Below are positions 3,713-20,973 of a DNA stretch of 21,110 bases, piece after piece; position 1 is the stretch's first letter; each line of letters starts with the position of its first letter. The stretch lies in contig JAITBO010000322.1 of assembly GCA_031283505.1 (NCBI GenBank), positions 1 through 21,110 on the forward strand, written 5' to 3'. The DNA is from Treponema sp. Its GTDB lineage: Bacteria; Spirochaetota; Spirochaetia; Treponematales; Breznakiellaceae. The translations under genes and the position numbers were made by a program. The notes under the pieces were generated by a model. It did no database searches, was not told the origin of the DNA, and saw nothing but the letters and a program-made list of their open reading frames with translations.

Positions 3713-3749
3713 AGCTCCCCCGCCAGGGTTACTACCGGGGGAGCTTTTT
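3713..3749 (+). terminator. Rho-independent terminator of the sugar ABC operon
   Basis: AGCTCCCCCG (3713-3722) pairs perfectly with CGGGGGAGCT (3736-3745), with a 13-nt loop, and is followed by a run of T at 3745-3749. The same bases on the other strand encode the last residues and the stop codon of the convergent gene. Confidence 0.85.
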
Positions 3750-4907
3750 GACAGCCTCTTGGATGACACGCAGGCGTACTACCCGGCCACCCCCGAATTC
3801 GGGATAGGCCCGGTAGCGATCTCCGTCATCGGAGAAGGGCGGCGCCAGTTCCCCCGGAAAGGGGGGAAAGCGCTTCTGCGTCCAGACAACCGAAGGATCG
3901 CTCAAGCGGGTTTTGGGGTGTGCGGGATCAAAATAGATGAAGGATTCATGGGCGCCCCGTTCGTCCAGGGGCGCTTCGTCCGTACTTTGCAGGTAGCGGA
4001 TCACTCCGGATGTAAAATTCACCGATTGAATGATCGCCGAATGAACGGCTTCGCCGTCCTCCCCCCTAAAGAGCAGAATGTCCGCAGGCTTTAGGCTGCG
4101 GATCTCGTCTTCTACCGGAATGATTTCCCGTGTCCGGGAATTGAAAAATTTACTCCCTACATAATAGGAAAGGTTTCCGTTCCGGGGCGCTCCGACGGTA
4201 CGCCGCAGGACACGGCCCAGGTCCGTCCCGGCGGCGGCGGCGATATGGGAAAGGATGTTCCACACAAAACCGGAACAGTCCATACCCAGGCGGCCCACGC
4301 AGTAAATGTAGTTGTACACATCGCTTTCCTCCACGCCCTTGCCGGAAACCAGAACGTAAGGCCGGTGGGGTAGGCCGCGGTAGGATCCCGCCTTCATCCG
4401 GGCTATATCGAAAAGGTCCAGAGACACCGACCAGGTTTGGGTGGGAATGTCCAGGATGACGATCTTTTCCCTGCCGTCGCCCAGAACTGCGGTGTACCGG
4501 GCAAAATCCCCGGTATAGAGAAGCCCGCCTATCTCCGCCCAGAGGGACGCGGGGTCTGCCTTGCCGCTCCCCCGAATCTCCCAACCCCGGTCTGAAAGCT
4601 CTATACGTTCCCGGTTCTCCGCAAAGGGCATCCTCAGGTTCATTACCCGGTTACCTATGATGTAGGTTTTAAGGCTCTTCCGGTAGGCATCCTCTATGAC
4701 CGCCTCCACGCCCTTTCCCCAGAGCCGTGCAGGATCGGAAAAGGCAGCCAGGTAGTTCCCACCTTTTGCGGCGGAAGCAGATGATGCGCGGATGTCCGGC
4801 GCAATCGTGTCCGGAACAGCCCGGACAGGAAAGAGGAACAAACCGCATACCAGAACCGTCACCGCAGGAAAGACCGTCCCAGACCGTCCGCAGGAGAACA
4901 GACCCAT
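3732..4907 (-). CDS. Secreted NlpC/P60-like cysteine hydrolase
   Basis: This 391-residue protein has an N-terminal hydrophobic segment (about residues 10-30, ending VRA) that looks like an export signal. The C-terminal half has the NlpC/P60 pattern: MDCSGFVWNI with the presumed nucleophile Cys211, then LKPADILLF, then AVHSAII with presumed catalytic His289. This family cleaves peptidoglycan stem peptides or related amide bonds. The N-terminal 200 residues match nothing I recognise. The gene lies 23 bp after nagB on the same strand and is probably co-transcribed with nagA-nagB, which fits a role in cell-wall amino-sugar salvage (inference). Its last codons and stop lie inside the terminator hairpin of the convergent operon. 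Overall similarity to well-studied NlpC proteins is low, so the exact substrate is open. Confidence 0.7.
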   Translation of the reverse strand: MGLFSCGRSGTVFPAVTVLVCGLFLFPVRAVPDTIAPDIRASSASAAKGGNYLAAFSDPARLWGKGVEAVIEDAYRKSLKTYIIGNRVMNLRMPFAENRERIELSDRGWEIRGSGKADPASLWAEIGGLLYTGDFARYTAVLGDGREKIVILDIPTQTWSVSLDLFDIARMKAGSYRGLPHRPYVLVSGKGVEESDVYNYIYCVGRLGMDCSGFVWNILSHIAAAAGTDLGRVLRRTVGAPRNGNLSYYVGSKFFNSRTREIIPVEDEIRSLKPADILLFRGEDGEAVHSAIIQSVNFTSGVIRYLQSTDEAPLDERGAHESFIYFDPAHPKTRLSDPSVVWTQKRFPPFPGELAPPFSDDGDRYRAYPEFGGGRVVRLRVIQEAVKKLPR

Positions 4908-14470: not shown

Positions 14471-15181
14471 CTAAAGTCCGAGATCCCTCTGGCTTACTAT
14501 GCCCTCCGCCATTATTCCGCTCTTGAGGAACTTCTTTATCAGGCTTATCACCGCTTCGTCCTTCACCGTCTCCCTCACCATCTTTATCAACAGGTCGTGA
14601 TTCACCGTGTCAAAGTATTTCTCCAAGTCCAGGTCTACTACATACGTATACCCTTCCTCGTAGTACCCCTTCGCGTGTTCTATCGCTTGATGGGCACTTC
14701 GTCCCGGTCTGAACCCGTAACTGCTGTCCGAGAAGGTCTGCTCGAATATCGGTTGCAGGATTTGTACTACCGCCTGTTTGCGGAAACAAAGTTTCCGAAC
14801 CATCCGGTCTATCACCGTCAGTATTCCCAACTGCCGTTCCCCTCCGTCCGGTTTCGGGATTTCCACCCTCCTCACCGGAGCGGGTTTGTACCATCCGTCC
14901 TCAATGCATAGTTCCCGGTACTATTTGATACGGTACGGTTGCAGTTCCTCCACCCTCATCCCGTCTACTCAGGCGGCCCCGCCGTTTCCTACCACCCGCT
15001 CGCAGGCGTCAAACATATTATCTATGTTCAATACCTTTCCGAGCAGTTCCGCACTGCCCACTACCATGGCCTCCGGTGTCCCAATGCTCCGCTCTCCCTT
15101 TGGTTCTTCGGGTTCCACCCTATCCCCCAAAGGAAAGCCAAAGTCAAGTTCCCCTGGCTCTGTTTTCTACTCTCCACACAT
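14471..15181 (-). pseudogene. Truncated, stop-interrupted group II intron reverse transcriptase
   Basis: Reading the minus strand in one frame from ATG at 15181, the sequence follows the start of a bacterial group II intron-encoded protein. It shows SIGTPEAMVV, LLGKVLNIDNMFDACERVV, VDGMRVEEL, YRELCIEDGWYKPAPVRR, VEIPKPDGGERQLGI, FEQTFSDSSYGFRPGRSAHQ and YVVDLDLEKYFDTVNHDLL (reverse transcriptase blocks up to about RT3). In-frame stops occur at 15167-15169 (TAG), 14969-14971 (TGA) and 14921-14923 (TAG). The frame ends at 14471 before the expected YADD active site, maturase and endonuclease parts. A 7-residue palindrome-encoded insert, RKLCFRK, disrupts the stretch after DRMV. The longest open piece starts at a GTG at 14875 (134 residues), but it is not a functional gene. 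Confidence 0.88.
14781..14797. repeat. Palindromic insertion inside the reverse-transcriptase remnant
   Basis: CGGAAAC-AAA-GTTTCCG is a perfect 7-bp inverted repeat that encodes the extra residues RKLCFRK on the minus strand. Group II proteins usually run straight from DR(M/V) to QQA at this point. The core GAAACTT...GTTTC is shared with the hairpin at 11517-11548. Confidence 0.55.
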
Positions 15182-15392: not shown

Positions 15393-16043
15393 ATGAAGGT
15401 CCCCGAATCCCAGGAGGTAAAAACCCGTCTTGCCGGAATCATGGCCGTTCTCGGCCCCCTGTACCCGGACCGCAAGCCCCTTTTGGATTATACAAACCCT
15501 TTCCAACTCCTGATCGCCACGGTACTGGCCGCCCAGTGTACGGACGCGGCGGTGAACCTTGTCACCCCCGCCCTTTTTGCCCGGTTTCCGAACCCGGCGG
15601 CCCTTGCGGAAGCCCTCCTTCCGGAGATTGAAACCCTGATCCATTCCACCGGGTTCTTCCGGGCCAAGGCCCGAAACATCAGGGCCCTTTCCCGGCAGCT
15701 TGAGGATCGTCATGGAGGCGAAGTCCCGCAGACCATGGAGGAGCTTACAGCGCTTCCGGGGGTTGGCCGGAAAACAGCCGGGGTGGTACTCTCCACCTTC
15801 TTCGGCGTTCCCGCCATCATCGTGGACACCCATTTCTCCCGGGTCACCCGCCGTCTGGGGCTTACCGAATCGGACCGGCCCGAGGTCATAGAGCGGGACC
15901 TGGGGGTCGCCGCGTCCAGAGAACAGTGGACCGCCGTAAGCCACGTCCTCAACCGCCATGGACGGCTCTGCTGCCACGCTCGCAAGCCTTCGTGCAATAC
16001 CTGCGCGGTAACCAATCAATGCCCTAAAGTTTTAACGATTTAA
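15393..16043 (+). CDS. nth: Endonuclease III (DNA glycosylase/AP lyase)
   Basis: This base-excision repair enzyme removes oxidised pyrimidines and cleaves the abasic site. Its 216 residues match the family length. Hallmarks are LLIATVLAAQCTDAAVN, the helix-hairpin-helix LPGVGRKTAGVV with catalytic Lys127, VDTHFSRV with catalytic Asp145, and a C-terminal 4Fe-4S cluster loop Cys194-x6-Cys201-x2-Cys204-x5-Cys210. No strong ribosome binding site precedes the ATG at 15393. An AGGAGG lies inside the gene (15412-15417) without a start at proper spacing, and the chosen start gives the expected N-terminal length. It overlaps the convergent ribF by 4 bp at the stop codons, with no terminator between them. 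Confidence 0.96.
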   Translation: MKVPESQEVKTRLAGIMAVLGPLYPDRKPLLDYTNPFQLLIATVLAAQCTDAAVNLVTPALFARFPNPAALAEALLPEIETLIHSTGFFRAKARNIRALSRQLEDRHGGEVPQTMEELTALPGVGRKTAGVVLSTFFGVPAIIVDTHFSRVTRRLGLTESDRPEVIERDLGVAASREQWTAVSHVLNRHGRLCCHARKPSCNTCAVTNQCPKVLTI

Positions 16044-16900
16044 CAACAGCCTGAAGACGCCGAATCGGAGAGAAACTCAACATATTCCCAATCCACGCCG
16101 CCTGTGTTTTCGGCGAAAGCGGCGGGGATACGGATGATTCCCGGTTCAATGAGGGCTTCCGTCCCCAGGGAGGTCCGGTCTGAGCCGTTCCTGCCATGGA
16201 GCAAAACCGGATAACTGCCCAACGGCGGCAGAATTTGCCCACTGGAGGCAAAATCCCAGGTAAGGCCGGGTCCGCTTGAAGGGACAAAGGCGCCGGAAAT
16301 ATCGGCGGTATAATTGCGGCCAAGCATGGACGCGGCTTCCCGCAGGCTTCCCCCGGCAATAGCGTTGCGGATACGGCTGGAACTTATGGGACATGAGCCT
16401 TCCAGCAGGGCCTCCACAATATCGGTAGGGATGCCCCGCAGGGCGTTCCTCTTTTGAATCGCCGGAGCGCCGGTATCCAGATGATAGCCGCAACGGAAGT
16501 CACTTCCCACCGCGAGGAAGCCCATGTTTCCGTGTTCCTCCAGGAGCCGGATAAATTCCAGCCCCGGCAGGCGCCGGAAAGACTCCGAAAAATCAATGAC
16601 CAGAATAATCGCCGCGCCCAGGCTTTCGATGAAGGCGGTTTTCTGCCGGAAACTGAGAATGTCCCCCCAATAGCCGTGCCCTTTCCTGGCTTTTTTATGG
16701 TTCTGTCTGAAGGTAATAATCACCGGCGTGAAACGGTCATCGTGACGGACTATACGTTCAATAAGAACCTGGTGTCCCCGATGTACCCCGTCGAAGACCC
16801 CGATGGTCATGGAAGTGGGTTTATCCCCTGAGGACAGTCCATCTTTAAGAAATTGGGGCCATTCAATTATTTGCATAGCAGTTTGTTGCACTTCGTACAT
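16040..16900 (-). CDS. ribF: RibF-like FAD synthetase with degenerate riboflavin kinase domain
   Basis: The N-terminal part is a typical FMN adenylyltransferase: GVFDGVHRGH (residues 34-43) for ATP binding, VGSDFRCGYH and SSSRIR (173-178), so it should make FAD from FMN. The C-terminal 85 residues lie where the riboflavin kinase barrel should be. However, the hallmark G-x-T-x-G-x-PTAN stretch is missing, GVY appears as GSY, and the sequence is poorly conserved. Total length is 286, short of the usual 305 or so. Kinase activity is therefore doubtful, and FMN may have to come from another enzyme or from uptake. The ATG at 16900 lies 6 bp from a 31-bp palindrome and lacks a ribosome binding site. 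ATG at 16876 is an alternative start. It converges on nth with a 4-bp overlap. Confidence 0.88.
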   Translation of the reverse strand: MYEVQQTAMQIIEWPQFLKDGLSSGDKPTSMTIGVFDGVHRGHQVLIERIVRHDDRFTPVIITFRQNHKKARKGHGYWGDILSFRQKTAFIESLGAAIILVIDFSESFRRLPGLEFIRLLEEHGNMGFLAVGSDFRCGYHLDTGAPAIQKRNALRGIPTDIVEALLEGSCPISSSRIRNAIAGGSLREAASMLGRNYTADISGAFVPSSGPGLTWDFASSGQILPPLGSYPVLLHGRNGSDRTSLGTEALIEPGIIRIPAAFAENTGGVDWEYVEFLSDSASSGCC

Positions 16901-16906
16901 AAAATA

Positions 16907-16937
16907 GTATAAATATTCATAAAATGAATATTTATAC
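16907..16937. promoter_or_regulatory. Perfect 14-bp inverted repeat at the ribF promoter region
   Basis: GTATAAATATTCAT, a 3-base AAA spacer, and ATGAATATTTATAC form a perfect AT-rich palindrome ending 6 bp before the ribF start. On the minus strand it contains TATACT (16911-16906), a good -10 element. It is a candidate operator over the ribF promoter, or a hairpin in the leader. Confidence 0.6.
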
Positions 16938-16970
16938 CTTCTAAACTGTGTAATAAGTCCGATAATCGGG

Positions 16971-16998
16971 GAATTTTTGCATAAACATACAAAAATTC
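16971..16998 (-). terminator. Weak hairpin downstream of the polyprenyl synthase gene
   Basis: GAATTTTTG (16971-16979) pairs perfectly with CAAAAATTC (16990-16998) around a 10-nt loop, 38 bp after the synthase stop codon. The stem is AT-rich and lacks a classical GC stem plus T-run, so a terminator role is only possible. Confidence 0.3.
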
Positions 16999-17035
16999 TA
17001 CAAGTGCGACAGGTTCATAGGGATACAGCATCCGC

Positions 17036-18001
17036 CTATCGTTCCCGAATCAGAAGCCGCCGGGCTAAGGTTTCCAGTATGTCCCTGTTCTTTCCCGGCG
17101 GAAGAGCGCCGATTTCCCTAAGCGCCCGGCCTGTATAGTTTTCCGCGTATCTGCCCGCAGCTTCGGCCCCCCCGGTTTGGCGCACCAGGTTAAAGACACG
17201 CTCCCCTTCTTCGGCGGTAAAGGCCGCCCTGGAAAAAATATCTCGCAGGGTCCCGGTGTTGTCCAGCGGCAGGGCGCAAAGCACCGGCAGAGTAATAAGT
17301 CCCGCAGTGATATCGTTCCCTAGGGATTTCCGCACCAGTTCCTGATTTCCCGTATAATCCAGAATATCATCAATAATCTGGAAGGCAATACCTATATTAT
17401 AGCCTATCCGCCTGAGCCTCCGGCATACTTCTTTGGGAGCCTTTGCCTCATGAGCCCCGGCATAACAGGCCAGGGAAAAAAGCAGCGCCGATTTCCCCAT
17501 GATCTTTCGCAGATAACTGCGCAGAGAAACATTGCTCCTGAACCGGTCGTTGTTCTGTTCAATTTCCATGGTACAGATAATCGAAATAAGCCGGGCCAGG
17601 TTGAGGGCGTTTTGAGGGGAAGTATACTCCGCAGTAATAAGGAAACAGCGGGAAAGGAGGTAATCCCCGATAAGAACCGCGTCCCGTTTCCCGAAACGGT
17701 TATGTACCGAGGGAAGCCCCCGGCGCAGGGGAGAATCATCGATTACATCATCGTGGATAAGGGTAGCCATGTGAAGCATTTCCAGGGCGGCTGCGAGATC
17801 GTAATGTTTTTCTTGAAGTTTACCGAACCGTGCGGCTATAAGGAACAGTCCTGGCCGGAGCAGTTTACCCTTACCGTCAAAAAGAGCGGTAAGCCCATCG
17901 GAAATAACCGGGTTTTCCGATGCCGATGCACTTCGTATAATGCCGGAAACCTTTTCCAGGGCTTCCGGCATTCCGTAAAAATCATTCCAGTAAGAAGTCA
18001 T
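17036..18001 (-). CDS. Long-chain polyprenyl diphosphate synthase
   Basis: This trans-prenyltransferase builds an all-trans polyprenyl diphosphate from IPP and a short allylic primer, usually as the side chain of a quinone. Its 321 residues show GKLLRP (45-50), the first Asp-rich motif HDDVIDDSPLRRG with DDxxD at residues 84-88, and the second motif QIIDDILDYTG with DDxxD at 211-215. Small residues (Ala79, Thr80) precede the first motif, a feature of long-chain rather than farnesyl enzymes. It starts 15 bp after the NDH-2 fusion stop and is the third gene of the flavoprotein operon, which points to tail supply for a menaquinone-type carrier. That link is inference. Chain length cannot be read from sequence, and no other quinone gene is in the window. 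Confidence 0.92.
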   Translation of the reverse strand: MTSYWNDFYGMPEALEKVSGIIRSASASENPVISDGLTALFDGKGKLLRPGLFLIAARFGKLQEKHYDLAAALEMLHMATLIHDDVIDDSPLRRGLPSVHNRFGKRDAVLIGDYLLSRCFLITAEYTSPQNALNLARLISIICTMEIEQNNDRFRSNVSLRSYLRKIMGKSALLFSLACYAGAHEAKAPKEVCRRLRRIGYNIGIAFQIIDDILDYTGNQELVRKSLGNDITAGLITLPVLCALPLDNTGTLRDIFSRAAFTAEEGERVFNLVRQTGGAEAAGRYAENYTGRALREIGALPPGKNRDILETLARRLLIRER

Positions 18002-18016
18002 CGGCTGTACGGATAC

Positions 18017-20119
18017 TTATTTTGACGGCCCATCGAGATACCAGTAGCGCTGGCGGGCGAACTTGGTTCCGTTCCACCACTTCTTGAATAGGGGAACCAC
18101 CCAGCAGTCCAGCCCGAAGGCCCTGCCGGCGCCGCCGAGCAGGAGGAATCCCGCAAAGAGGAACCAAACCTGATTCCAGGCAAACATTCCGGAAAGGGTG
18201 AATACCAGACACAAGACTATCGAAACCGCCGCCGCCCACCAGGTAAAGAGGCCGCCCATCATGGCAAGGCCGATAAGGATTTCTACCAGAACAACTGTTA
18301 ACTGGAACATCTGGAAGGGAATGTGGGCGGCAATGCCATCCATAAAGGTAGTTCTGAACCAGGTTGCCACCACTCCATTGGAGTCAAAAATGGACTTGCT
18401 CAAATCCCAAACCCCCTGGAAGGCGCTCTCCGCCGCTCCCGATGCGGCGCTTACCGCATCCGCAACACCGCCAGAGAGATCGCCCACTGTATCCGCCGCG
18501 CTTCCAAAGAGGTCTTCCGCCCCGCCACCGAAGAGATCGCCCGTAGCGTCCGCCGCGCTTCCAAAGAGGTCTTCCACCCCGCCGCCGAAGAGATCGCCCG
18601 CAACGTCAACCGCACCGCCGGGAAGGTCCCCTGCGGCACTCGCGGCGCTTAGGGCTTCCGCCCCGGACTGCACTACGCCGGAAGAGAACATCCAGCCCGA
18701 TTTACTGCCCAGACTCCAGGAAAGCCAGCCTTCACCTATCTTATTGATCCCTTCAAAGACCCACATAAGCCCCAGCCAGAACCGGAGAGGAAGGAGCCAG
18801 TAACCCCTGGTTTTGTACGCCCCAAAACCACGGATAAAAGAACGGCCCTGCCGCATATCCAGGAACTCATGTTTGATGTATTCCCAGCACTGGTTAAACC
18901 CGGCAACCTCGATAAGGTAGTGGAGGTTGACGATATGCTTCATGGCCATGGCGAAAAAGCCCGAAAGCTTAATACCCATGGCGTTGGAAACCGCGTACTT
19001 GCCTCCCACGGAAACCATAAACCCATGGTAATTTGATTTAAATTTTTTCGCCGTCTGCCCTTCAATATCCGCGATGATGTTATGGGCCGCAGTTTTGCCG
19101 GTCTGCACGGCGGTCTCCACGATTTGAGGCAGGGGTTTTTCATTTTCGATGAACCAGAGGTTATCTCCCACCGGGAACACGTTGGGATGATCCTCTGAGC
19201 GGATTTCACCGGTAACCAGGAGTCGTCCCCTGCGGTTCCGCTTTGGAGGGCCGTCCCCGGAATTTTCAAGATTCCTGCCAAAGGGTCCTTTGGCAAGATC
19301 CAGGGAGTCGGCAAAGGCGCAACCCGTGACGCCGGCGGTCCAGATGAAGGTACCGGTTTCAAGGACGGAACCGTCCTTGAGCTTGACCATTCCCGGATCA
19401 GCCCCAACAATGGGCGTGTTGACCAAAAGTTCCACCCCGTGATGCTTCATATAATAAACGACCTTTTCCCTCAGTTCCTCTTCCAGCATGGGCAGAATAT
19501 TCGGCAGGGCTTCCACCACCACAATATGCACCTCGTTTTTGGCTATCAGCCACTTGGCGCACATGGCATCCCGCCATTCCAGAAGTTCCCCGGCCATTTC
19601 AATCCCCGTAAAGCCCCCGCCGGCCACGACAAAGGTAAGCATCTTCTGACGCTTGACCCGGTCCTGTTCGGCCACCGCCTTCTCAAAAATATCGTCAATA
19701 TGATACCGGAGCTTCATGGCGTCATCAAAGGACCAGAGGGTAAAAGAATTTTCTTTAATTCCCGAAATCCCGAAGAATTCCGGCTCGGCGCCGCTGCCCA
19801 GAATCAGATAATCGTAATCGTAGACCCTTACTGAGGACCGGGCCTGTTTCTTGTCAAAATCAACGGAAACAACAGTGTCAAGGACTACCTTAACTTTGGA
19901 GGCCCCGAATATCTTGGCATAGGGAACCCGCACCGAATCGGGTTCAACCCGGTGTCCCGCGACTTCGTGGAGTTCCGTCATCAGGGTATGAAAAGGATGC
20001 CTGTCTATAAGGGTGATAGTAACCCCGTCATTGTGTTTGTACTTTTTCGCAAGCCTTTTAGCCGCCGCGATTCCCCCATACCCGCCGCCGATAATGAGAA
20101 TATTCTTTCCATTCCCCAT
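18017..20119 (-). CDS. NDH-2 type NADH dehydrogenase fused to a DoxX-like membrane domain
   Basis: This 700-residue protein has two parts. Residues 1 to about 430 form a two-dinucleotide-fold flavoprotein: FAD site IIGGGYGGIAAA (9-20), NADH site VVAGGGFTGIEMAGEL (164-179) and the second FAD contact FPVGDN (315-320). This part should oxidise NADH and reduce quinone at the cytoplasmic membrane face. The C-terminal part has membrane helices near 441-457, 604-622, 625-647 and 648-664, resembling a DoxX-type unit. Between the first and second helix lies an insert of about 100 residues rich in Gly, Ala and Asp, with 19-residue repeats (DLFGGG, EDLFGSAAD). A good ribosome binding site (AGGAG) precedes the ATG. 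It lies 17 bp after the FMN-binding protein gene. Electron acceptor and repeat function are unknown. Confidence 0.88.
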   Translation of the reverse strand: MGNGKNILIIGGGYGGIAAAKRLAKKYKHNDGVTITLIDRHPFHTLMTELHEVAGHRVEPDSVRVPYAKIFGASKVKVVLDTVVSVDFDKKQARSSVRVYDYDYLILGSGAEPEFFGISGIKENSFTLWSFDDAMKLRYHIDDIFEKAVAEQDRVKRQKMLTFVVAGGGFTGIEMAGELLEWRDAMCAKWLIAKNEVHIVVVEALPNILPMLEEELREKVVYYMKHHGVELLVNTPIVGADPGMVKLKDGSVLETGTFIWTAGVTGCAFADSLDLAKGPFGRNLENSGDGPPKRNRRGRLLVTGEIRSEDHPNVFPVGDNLWFIENEKPLPQIVETAVQTGKTAAHNIIADIEGQTAKKFKSNYHGFMVSVGGKYAVSNAMGIKLSGFFAMAMKHIVNLHYLIEVAGFNQCWEYIKHEFLDMRQGRSFIRGFGAYKTRGYWLLPLRFWLGLMWVFEGINKIGEGWLSWSLGSKSGWMFSSGVVQSGAEALSAASAAGDLPGGAVDVAGDLFGGGVEDLFGSAADATGDLFGGGAEDLFGSAADTVGDLSGGVADAVSAASGAAESAFQGVWDLSKSIFDSNGVVATWFRTTFMDGIAAHIPFQMFQLTVVLVEILIGLAMMGGLFTWWAAAVSIVLCLVFTLSGMFAWNQVWFLFAGFLLLGGAGRAFGLDCWVVPLFKKWWNGTKFARQRYWYLDGPSK
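18478..18600 (-). repeat. 57-bp in-frame tandem repeat within the NDH-2 fusion gene
   Basis: Units begin with GATCGCCC at 18478, 18535 and 18592, a spacing of exactly 57 bp (19 codons). Two full copies differ at only a few bases, and a third begins then diverges. Each encodes the block DLFGGG-x-EDLFGSAAD plus joining residues. Flanking DLPGG and DLSGG segments look like older, decayed copies, so copy number may vary between strains. Confidence 0.9.
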
Positions 20120-20136
20120 AAAAAACTCCTATCCGG

Positions 20137-20904
20137 TTATCTGGCCGACGTAAGGGCCCGCTTTACGGTATCAAGGTAATCCTTGACCTGTATGGATACG
20201 CCAGAAATACCGTCGGGCGTACCATTGGACTTGATCTTTATCTTCTCCGGGTCCTGGGCTTTAATCAGGGCGGCGGCGAAGAGATTGGCCTGTTCGTGCC
20301 ACAACTTTTTTGCCCCCGCCATGGGATAGCCTTTGGCCCTGGAGGTGATCATCTTGGAAGGATTGACACTGGCGGGCATACCCTGAAGTATTCCGTTCCA
20401 GAGTACATCCACAATGGTTCCGTTTACCACAGTGATGATGGTGGAATTTTTGGTATGGTACTCATCCGACGCTGCGGCTTCAGCATAATACCAGCCGTCC
20501 TTATAGGCGCCCTTAGCAACAGCCTTGTCCTTTAAGGCCTTGGCCGCTAGGTCAAAGAAAGGTTTTGCATTGGCAGGCCCTCCTTCCACGGAAACAGCCG
20601 CCGTATCCTGGGTCGAAACCAGATGCTGCTCCACTGCGACGGACTGGGTTGCCCATGCGGTGGCGGCGGGTACGGCGCCCGAAGCGGCGATGGTTTTAAG
20701 ATCTTTGGTCCCCGCGTTAAGGCTCAGAATATTCCATGAGGCGGAAGCGATTTTGCCTCCCTTAACCTCAATAACCACCTGATTCTTCTGATTATTGACA
20801 TAATCCGCATCCTGGGCAAAGTAAAACCCATCCTTATAGTTCTGGGCGGATACCGCCGCAACGCAGAACACGGCAAGCGCCGCAAATATACCTAATTTCT
20901 TCAT
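20137..20904 (-). CDS. Exported tandem FMN-binding domain protein
   Basis: This 255-residue protein starts at ATG 20904, chosen because AAGGAG lies just upstream and the residues that follow form a clean signal peptide cleaved near AVSA-QN. An upstream in-frame ATG at 21078 would give an unlikely leader. The mature part holds two related halves, each opening YKDG(F/W)Y(F/Y)A (residues 23-30 and 134-141) and each with a V-x-x-G-x-I core, as in FMN_bind domains. The second half ends PDGISGVS (230-237), close to the [ST]GA[TS] site at which ApbE/Ftp enzymes attach FMN covalently. The first half has QDTAAVS (99-105) there, without the SG. It is the first gene of the operon with NDH-2 and polyprenyl synthase, and is probably a periplasmic electron carrier. 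Confidence 0.82.
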   Translation of the reverse strand: MKKLGIFAALAVFCVAAVSAQNYKDGFYFAQDADYVNNQKNQVVIEVKGGKIASASWNILSLNAGTKDLKTIAASGAVPAATAWATQSVAVEQHLVSTQDTAAVSVEGGPANAKPFFDLAAKALKDKAVAKGAYKDGWYYAEAAASDEYHTKNSTIITVVNGTIVDVLWNGILQGMPASVNPSKMITSRAKGYPMAGAKKLWHEQANLFAAALIKAQDPEKIKIKSNGTPDGISGVSIQVKDYLDTVKRALTSAR

Positions 20905-20944: not shown

Positions 20945-20973
20945 ATAATATTCCTTATGAAAAATCCTGTAAA
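20945..20973 (-). promoter_or_regulatory. Sigma70-type promoter of the flavoprotein operon
   Basis: On the minus strand TTTACA (20973-20968, five of six -35 bases) and TATTAT (20950-20945, five of six -10 bases) are separated by exactly 17 bp. Transcription would begin near 20938, giving a leader of about 33 nt with the ribosome binding site AAGGAG. Confidence 0.6.

Follow-up and report, generated by a model that had tools for sequence, protein, structure and literature searches.

Does a treponeme carry a flavin-based electron transfer system of the kind found in Listeria and Clostridium? The question is raised by a gene cluster in a stretch of 21,110 nucleotides from Treponema sp. (GenBank assembly GCA_031283505.1, contig JAITBO010000322.1), the whole of which is called the window here. 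A first-pass annotation had placed four open reading frames (ORFs) on its minus strand, and all four were confirmed there, with families assigned by Pfam, NCBIfam and PDB matches. We consider it likely that the operon represents the Ndh2, prenyl synthase and flavoprotein part of flavin-based extracytosolic electron transfer of the Listeria/Clostridium kind, in a spirochaete. The observations behind this are the genes present, a site resembling the flavinylation motif, a fold prediction and gene neighbourhoods conserved in relatives. The features are listed below, with flavin mononucleotide and flavin adenine dinucleotide abbreviated to FMN and FAD, and extracellular electron transfer to EET.

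20137..20904, minus strand: exported two-domain FMN_bind-like protein, 255 amino acids (ORF, homologues, PDB match and structure model; export signal judged by eye)
18017..20119, minus strand: NDH-2-type NADH dehydrogenase with a C-terminal membrane part, EET-type Ndh2, 700 amino acids (Pfam and PDB matches, hydropathy)
17036..18001, minus strand: long-chain trans-prenyl diphosphate synthase, DmkB/HepT-like, 321 amino acids (Pfam, NCBIfam, neighbourhood)
16040..16900, minus strand: FAD synthetase, RibF-like, FAD_syn domain only, 286 amino acids (Pfam; weak operon link)
20194..20214, minus strand: candidate flavinylation motif DGISGVS, residues 231-237 of the FMN_bind-like protein, Ser237 being the predicted FMN acceptor (alignment)
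18422..18661, minus strand: low-complexity Gly/Ala/Asp loop of Ndh2, about residues 487-566 (length varies among aligned homologues)
20945..20973, minus strand: promoter-like site TTTACA-17-TATTAT ahead of the FMN gene (consensus matched at 10 of 12 positions)

The genes are read in the order FMN protein, Ndh2, prenyl synthase, FAD synthetase. Because only 17 bases separate the first two and 15 the second and third, the first three probably form a single transcript. The promoter-like site rests on the consensus only; the region holds ten sites at the 10/12 level, compared with 3.4 in shuffles. Pfam identified Ndh2 by Pyr_redox_2 (E 7e-35), the prenyl synthase by polyprenyl_synt (5e-59) and the FAD synthetase by FAD_syn (2e-25). 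The top protein matches came from metagenome-assembled genomes (MAGs) of Treponema and Spirochaetaceae; the named species were Leadbettera azotonutricia (73%) and Breznakiella homolactica (72%), which we take to be termite- or cockroach-gut species.

PDB matches of Ndh2 were NDH-2 enzymes and covered about residues 5-410. Past this point follow the low-complexity loop, whose gene sequence holds a 57-base duplication (18492-18607; Tandem Repeats Finder, unit 57 bases, 2 copies), and a conserved hydrophobic part with hydropathy peaks of up to 2.29 at residues 598-647, which is the membrane part. Its match to DoxX was weak (E 0.018), as were those to MauE and DoxD. The first-pass annotation had read a fusion of NDH-2 with DoxX as the mark of a variant system, and this claim was not supported. 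Since Clostridium drakei Ndh2 shows the same weak matches, and since the operational definition of EET asks for an NADH dehydrogenase with a transmembrane helix in a flavinylation-associated gene cluster (PMC8238504), the fusion appears to be normal for this kind of Ndh2; the membrane extension was rejected as a spirochaete invention on the same two grounds. As far as tested, the locus itself seems to fit that definition, with NDH-2 recognised by Pfam and PDB matches, the helix by hydropathy and the cluster by the adjacent exported FMN_bind-like gene; KEGG K03885 was used in PMC8238504.

Gene order was compared in the best 80 of 252 stretches from a scan of one genome per species, many of them closely related. 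In 71 of the 80 loci the prenyl synthase follows Ndh2 in the same orientation, at a distance of less than 400 bases. Three of the remaining nine stop at a contig edge (L015, L051, L071) and six do not fit: EetA and EetB stand between the two genes in L062, L068 and L073, which is the arrangement of C. drakei, C. zeae and C. folliculivorans, L080 and L017 show no prenyl synthase, and Ndh2 of L049 is split in two pieces. The pairing of Ndh2 with the prenyl synthase is more frequent than expected by chance. A DmkB-type prenyl synthase with Ndh2, which is a feature of EET systems, thus appears to be present in the window; its best NCBIfam match was heptaprenyl diphosphate synthase component II, under the strict cut-off. 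The FAD synthetase, which had also been drawn into the picture, is indeed present on the same strand, but its link to the operon is doubtful: a gap of 135 bases precedes it, it adjoins the prenyl synthase in one of the 80 loci (L013), and a Pfam scan found no riboflavin-kinase domain in it.

The other parts of an EET system were sought in the genomes of relatives, a set of 46 drawn from 48 of the 80 loci, in which four genomes are Firmicutes and the MAGs are incomplete. The search for ApbE and for EetA- and EetB-like genes, which the first-pass annotation had called for, was successful in these relatives: matches over the cut-off were found to ApbE in 41 genomes, to EetA-like PF07009 in 42 and to EetB-like PF07456 in 42. 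The UbiA family was present in 41, FMN_bind in 45 and a prenyl synthase in all 46, with at least two rows of matches in 37. G001, the nearest relative examined (Ndh2 89% identical), contains ApbE, EetA, EetB and UbiA. A genome with neither an ApbE/Ftp homologue nor a quinone pathway had been named as fatal to the idea; with ApbE and UbiA each in 41 of 46, this outcome was not seen in the relatives.

Several loci join these parts physically. In C. drakei the genes for Ndh2, EetA, EetB, the prenyl synthase and ApbE stand in a row. In G014 the FMN-Ndh2 genes are back to back (divergent) with eetA-eetB (L092, on the same contig as L015); L009 and L083 are arranged likewise, and in L011 eetA-eetB lies at a distance of about 3.5 kb. 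In the window itself, the 206 bases between the start of the FMN gene and the right edge showed no EetA-like frame. One contig of L004 (Ndh2 77% identical to that of the window) carries ApbE, UbiD, MqnP, UbiX, an importer, Ndh2 and the prenyl synthase, with EetB on the opposite strand, cut by the contig end, and without a window-type FMN gene. At the place where that gene would be (L004:8945-9968) an exported-looking frame was read by eye; it contains a DAVTGAS motif and terminates early. The Breznakiella chromosome has the parts of the system at widely separated positions.

Ndh2 and the prenyl synthase could also be an ordinary NADH:quinone module, for example for oxygen scavenging or redox balance, next to a flavoprotein that is unrelated or serves iron uptake. 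The pair is far more conserved than its FMN neighbour, and the 1.5 kb upstream of Ndh2 hold none of the tested genes in 50 of the 80 loci, as such a module would allow. However, the same Ndh2 clusters with EetA, EetB and ApbE in the three Clostridium loci, the published EET definition fits, and ApbE, EetA and EetB accompany it in most of the 46 genomes, which makes an ordinary module very unlikely in our judgement.

The flavoprotein was assigned as FMN_bind-like because six of its 120 listed homologues carry PF04205, the NCBIfam model of PplA matches it in part (E 3e-5, far under the cut-off), PDB entry 2kzx matches residues 135-254 (E 3e-18) and structure prediction gave a confident model; the FMN_bind fold is therefore predicted to be present. 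By eye, the protein has an export signal and no lipobox; many of its homologues are named 'membrane-anchored lipoprotein' in the source database records. The tandem FMN_bind protein described earlier stands as far as its two FMN_bind-like domains are concerned, but there is a single acceptor motif, in the C-terminal domain only, and this motif, DGISGVS, has Val at the canonical Ala position. A loose form, D-x-[IV]-[STA]-G-[VAC]-[ST], fits all 42 aligned rows, having been derived from the same alignment; a pattern fixed beforehand matched 38 of the 42. The canonical form D-x-x-[ST]-G-A-[ST] was found in three rows and an N-terminal acceptor motif in 11, the window protein being among neither.

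A number of observations weigh against the reading as EET-type electron transfer. The Pfam FMN_bind family gave no match to the window's flavoprotein even at E up to 10. Val for Ala and Ser for Thr have each been reported to lower flavinylation (PMC12052999), and the window motif carries both. The structure model of Ndh2 is poor (predicted local distance difference test, pLDDT, 59). The three-gene order, whose conservation the first-pass annotation had proposed to test, was found conserved for Ndh2 and the prenyl synthase but not for the FMN gene, a window-type copy of which immediately precedes Ndh2 in the same orientation in only six of the 80 loci (eight more begin at a contig edge). ApbE, EetAB and UbiA are known only from the genomes of relatives, nearest in G001. 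Five of the 46 lack ApbE (G003, G013, G016, G017, G034) and five lack UbiA (G002, G003, G010, G016, G017), and neither group consists of small MAGs only. In several relatives eetB is followed by a third gene, which gave no meaningful Pfam match in five relatives at E up to 10 and no NCBIfam match in the one scanned. As no family match supports the label of ECF-T partner for this gene, the label was dropped, and the FAD exporter appears incomplete on this evidence. In Listeria, where EetB-FmnA exports FAD, deletion of eetA left EET normal (PMC9973259), and Lactiplantibacillus plantarum mutants in dmkA, eetB/dmkB or eetA kept EET with 1,4-dihydroxy-2-naphthoate (DHNA), at a somewhat lower level (PMC10746273).

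The quinone is a further difficulty. MenD was over the cut-off in none of the 46 relatives (sub-cut-off matches in 41) versus 7 of 14 controls, MqnC in none (26 below it) versus 2 of 14 controls, and MqnA/D in four, all weak. The early futalosine steps MqnA/D and MqnC thus appear to be absent, and the relatives seem to lack the genes for de novo quinone synthesis; late steps only were found in a search that covered MenD, MqnC and MqnA/D and no other early steps. Of the menaquinone genes that the first-pass annotation had proposed to look for, only late ones were thus found in relatives. Its idea that electrons pass from NADH through a quinone to a flavinylated protein gains from the EET genes in relatives, the PMC8238504 definition and the C. 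drakei cluster.

UbiD is present in 31 of the 46 genomes, and all of the six UbiDs that were scanned score above the TIGR03701 cut-off for menaquinone decarboxylase, so that relatives are predicted to have an MqnL-type decarboxylase. This enzyme type points to 1,4-dihydroxy-6-naphthoate as the likely precursor. In 29 of the 31 genomes UbiD lies beside an MqnP-like UbiA, the exceptions being G002, where the contig ends, and G008, where the two are on different contigs; the UbiA matches to MqnP-specific models remain below the strict cut-offs. Twenty of the 31 also have an NMT1-type ATP-binding cassette (ABC) importer no more than 8 kb from UbiD or, for G008, on the contig that carries MqnP. The importer proteins, picked by similarity, comprise 23 distinct sequences that are 27-72% identical to the one of Breznakiella. 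In the 15 genomes without UbiD, the six UbiAs scanned (G006, G015, G022, G025, G043, G045) were nearest to MenA families, below strict cut-offs; MenA of C. zeae was over the cut-off. In locus L097 a MenA-family gene and an importer of this NMT1 kind are divergently oriented. In C. zeae and C. folliculivorans (L125 and L126 with L068 and L073) an EET cluster of the MenA type coexists with a second, separate cluster of UbiD, MqnP, UbiX and importer genes.

For co-occurrence, 194 genomes from the order to which Breznakiella belongs were examined, assumed to be the same draw for both searches, with MqnL counted over its cut-off and Ndh2 at E 1e-80 or better. MqnL was found in 43 and Ndh2 in 63; 40 had both, three MqnL only, 23 Ndh2 only and 128 neither (Fisher p 1.4e-21, a value weakened by the lack of correction for kinship). 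Leaving out two Ndh2 matches that lack the membrane part gave 40, 3, 21 and 130 (p 1.9e-22, likewise uncorrected for kinship). Two of the genomes with Ndh2 only, G076 and G088, have MqnL in pieces, below the cut-off.

These gene sets suggest that the quinone is demethylmenaquinone made from scavenged naphthoate. We tentatively propose that termite-gut and other spirochaetes run a flavin-based respiration on a quinone that they do not make themselves: the NMT1-type importer would take up 1,4-dihydroxy-6-naphthoate from neighbours (the 2-isomer where MenA replaces MqnP), and MqnP, MqnL and UbiX, with a prenyl tail from the Ndh2-linked synthase, would convert it to demethylmenaquinone, so that the cells would depend on cross-feeding. 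As a whole this proposal is possible rather than probable. Dependence on an outside quinone has a precedent, because L. plantarum is a quinone auxotroph that performs EET with outside DHNA (PMC10746273). For the importer no precedent was found in the literature searched, and the salvage-importer reading is weakened because G001, the nearest relative examined, shows no importer beside UbiD, the contig edge not being the cause.

The MqnL/MqnP/UbiX and ABC cluster may instead serve aromatic acid decarboxylation or the uptake of thiamine precursors or sulfonates, with the EET quinone made by another route. The importer is a member of the broad NMT1/THI5 family, scores below the SsuA cut-off and has THI5 among its PDB matches; the L048 importer has no Pfam match. 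The strict MqnP cut-offs that are missed fit this explanation too, as do the 11 of the 31 UbiD genomes, G001 included, without an importer nearby, at least three of which stop at a contig edge (G002, G014, G030). We regard it as unlikely, since all six UbiDs scanned pass the menaquinone-decarboxylase cut-off, the cluster adjoins Ndh2, EetA and EetB in Vallitalea (L080) and lies beside Ndh2 in L004 and L048, and a related importer is divergent from the MenA-family gene in L097. Rfam gave no match at gathering scores in the window and eight loci; a thiamine pyrophosphate riboswitch near the importer was accordingly discarded.

Where the electrons go after the flavoprotein is a separate matter. 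The flavoprotein could feed secreted FMN_bind/FAD_binding_2 reductases (fumarate- or urocanate-reductase-like) in a periplasmic anaerobic respiration, in which nothing crosses the outer membrane. FMN_bind occurs in 45 of the 46 genomes, many of the matches listed being in frames of about 580-820 amino acids. Two FMN_bind + FAD_binding_2 proteins lie upstream of the FMN gene in L012, one such reductase is present in L009 (by similarity) and one near eetAB in L082, and another directly precedes Ndh2 in C. drakei. On the other hand, the reductases have no known substrate, many are distant from the locus, and none was found among the eight window proteins scanned with Pfam. We give this explanation nearly an even chance, and it is as much a branch of the best explanation as a rival to it. 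Because of the secreted reductases near these four loci, periplasmic acceptors appear at least as likely as extracellular ones.

For EET-type transfer in the treponeme we infer the following scheme, including the covalent FMN, the identity of the quinone and the parts that the window's own genome would have to supply. Cytosolic NADH would be oxidised by Ndh2 at the inner membrane, and Ndh2 would reduce a demethylmenaquinone-like quinone whose tail comes from the prenyl synthase. The electrons would then pass to the FMN that ApbE would have attached to Ser237 of the exported protein, using FAD whose export EetB may assist. The flavoprotein would hand them on to flavin reductases of the periplasm or to other acceptors, and NAD+ would be regenerated. 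Most relatives would obtain the quinone ring by salvage of a carboxylated naphthoate, to be completed by enzymes of the MqnP/MqnL/UbiX or MenA type.

With flavin-based EET (FLEET) of Listeria, Enterococcus, Lactiplantibacillus and Clostridium the system has in common Ndh2 with a membrane part and the DmkB-type prenyl synthase, as well as EetA, EetB, ApbE and a flavoprotein in relatives; Ndh2 and the prenyl synthase of C. drakei are homologous to those of the window. It differs in its diderm host, in the spread of the genes over several loci in many relatives, in an FMN protein that has two domains but a single acceptor motif and, judged by eye, lacks a lipobox, in the use of MqnP/MqnL/UbiX instead of MenA by most relatives and in an ECF-T partner that family matches do not identify. 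The Cad/ApbE/NADH dehydrogenase cluster published in 2019 (PMC7074142) has the same core gene set, which was noted there from gene neighbourhood. Its carriers include a 'Spirochaete', given without a species name, and hence presence in spirochaetes is not wholly new; the section cited mentions neither MqnP/L/M nor an importer. The late futalosine pathway, for which MqnP, MqnL and MqnM were proposed as the last steps (PMC4746308), is shared by relatives in the TIGR03701-type UbiD, the UbiA-like prenyltransferase and UbiX; in relatives, however, the early steps were not found and the genes are linked to EET genes and often to an ABC importer. Futalosine appeared in none of the EET literature matches listed, and spirochaetes in none of those listed by the main search, although the pie charts of PMC8238504 and PMC9973259 may include some; the spirochaete mention in the PMC7005843 excerpt does not concern EET genes. 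By title, no paper on menaquinone or electron transport in termite treponemes was found.

Three further observations were made. A reverse transcriptase fragment, presumably group II intron-like, lies at 14471-14875 on the minus strand (RVT_1 profile positions 1-107 of 205). At 3732-4907, minus strand, a 391-amino-acid exported-looking protein has no Pfam match at E 1e-3. In G012 (L083:10580-12565), ResB/CcsA-like genes and a fragment of a flavin reductase, all labelled by eye, adjoin the gene of a short, exported protein in which at least three CxxCH motifs were seen; this protein is a possible c-type cytochrome, which to our knowledge would be unusual for a treponeme.

Flavin-based EET is known above all from Gram-positive bacteria. 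Spirochaetes related to termite-gut species are fermenters and acetogens, and if the system works in these diderm bacteria it would give them a respiratory-like outlet for NADH. Transporters for quinone precursors were still to be annotated in 2016 (PMC4746308), and by title none was found among the literature matches listed; the importer, if its proposed role is true, would answer that call. With the late quinone steps and the importer, the published guess that soluble quinone precursors are exchanged between microbes becomes testable on named genes, which are present for example in Breznakiella homolactica.

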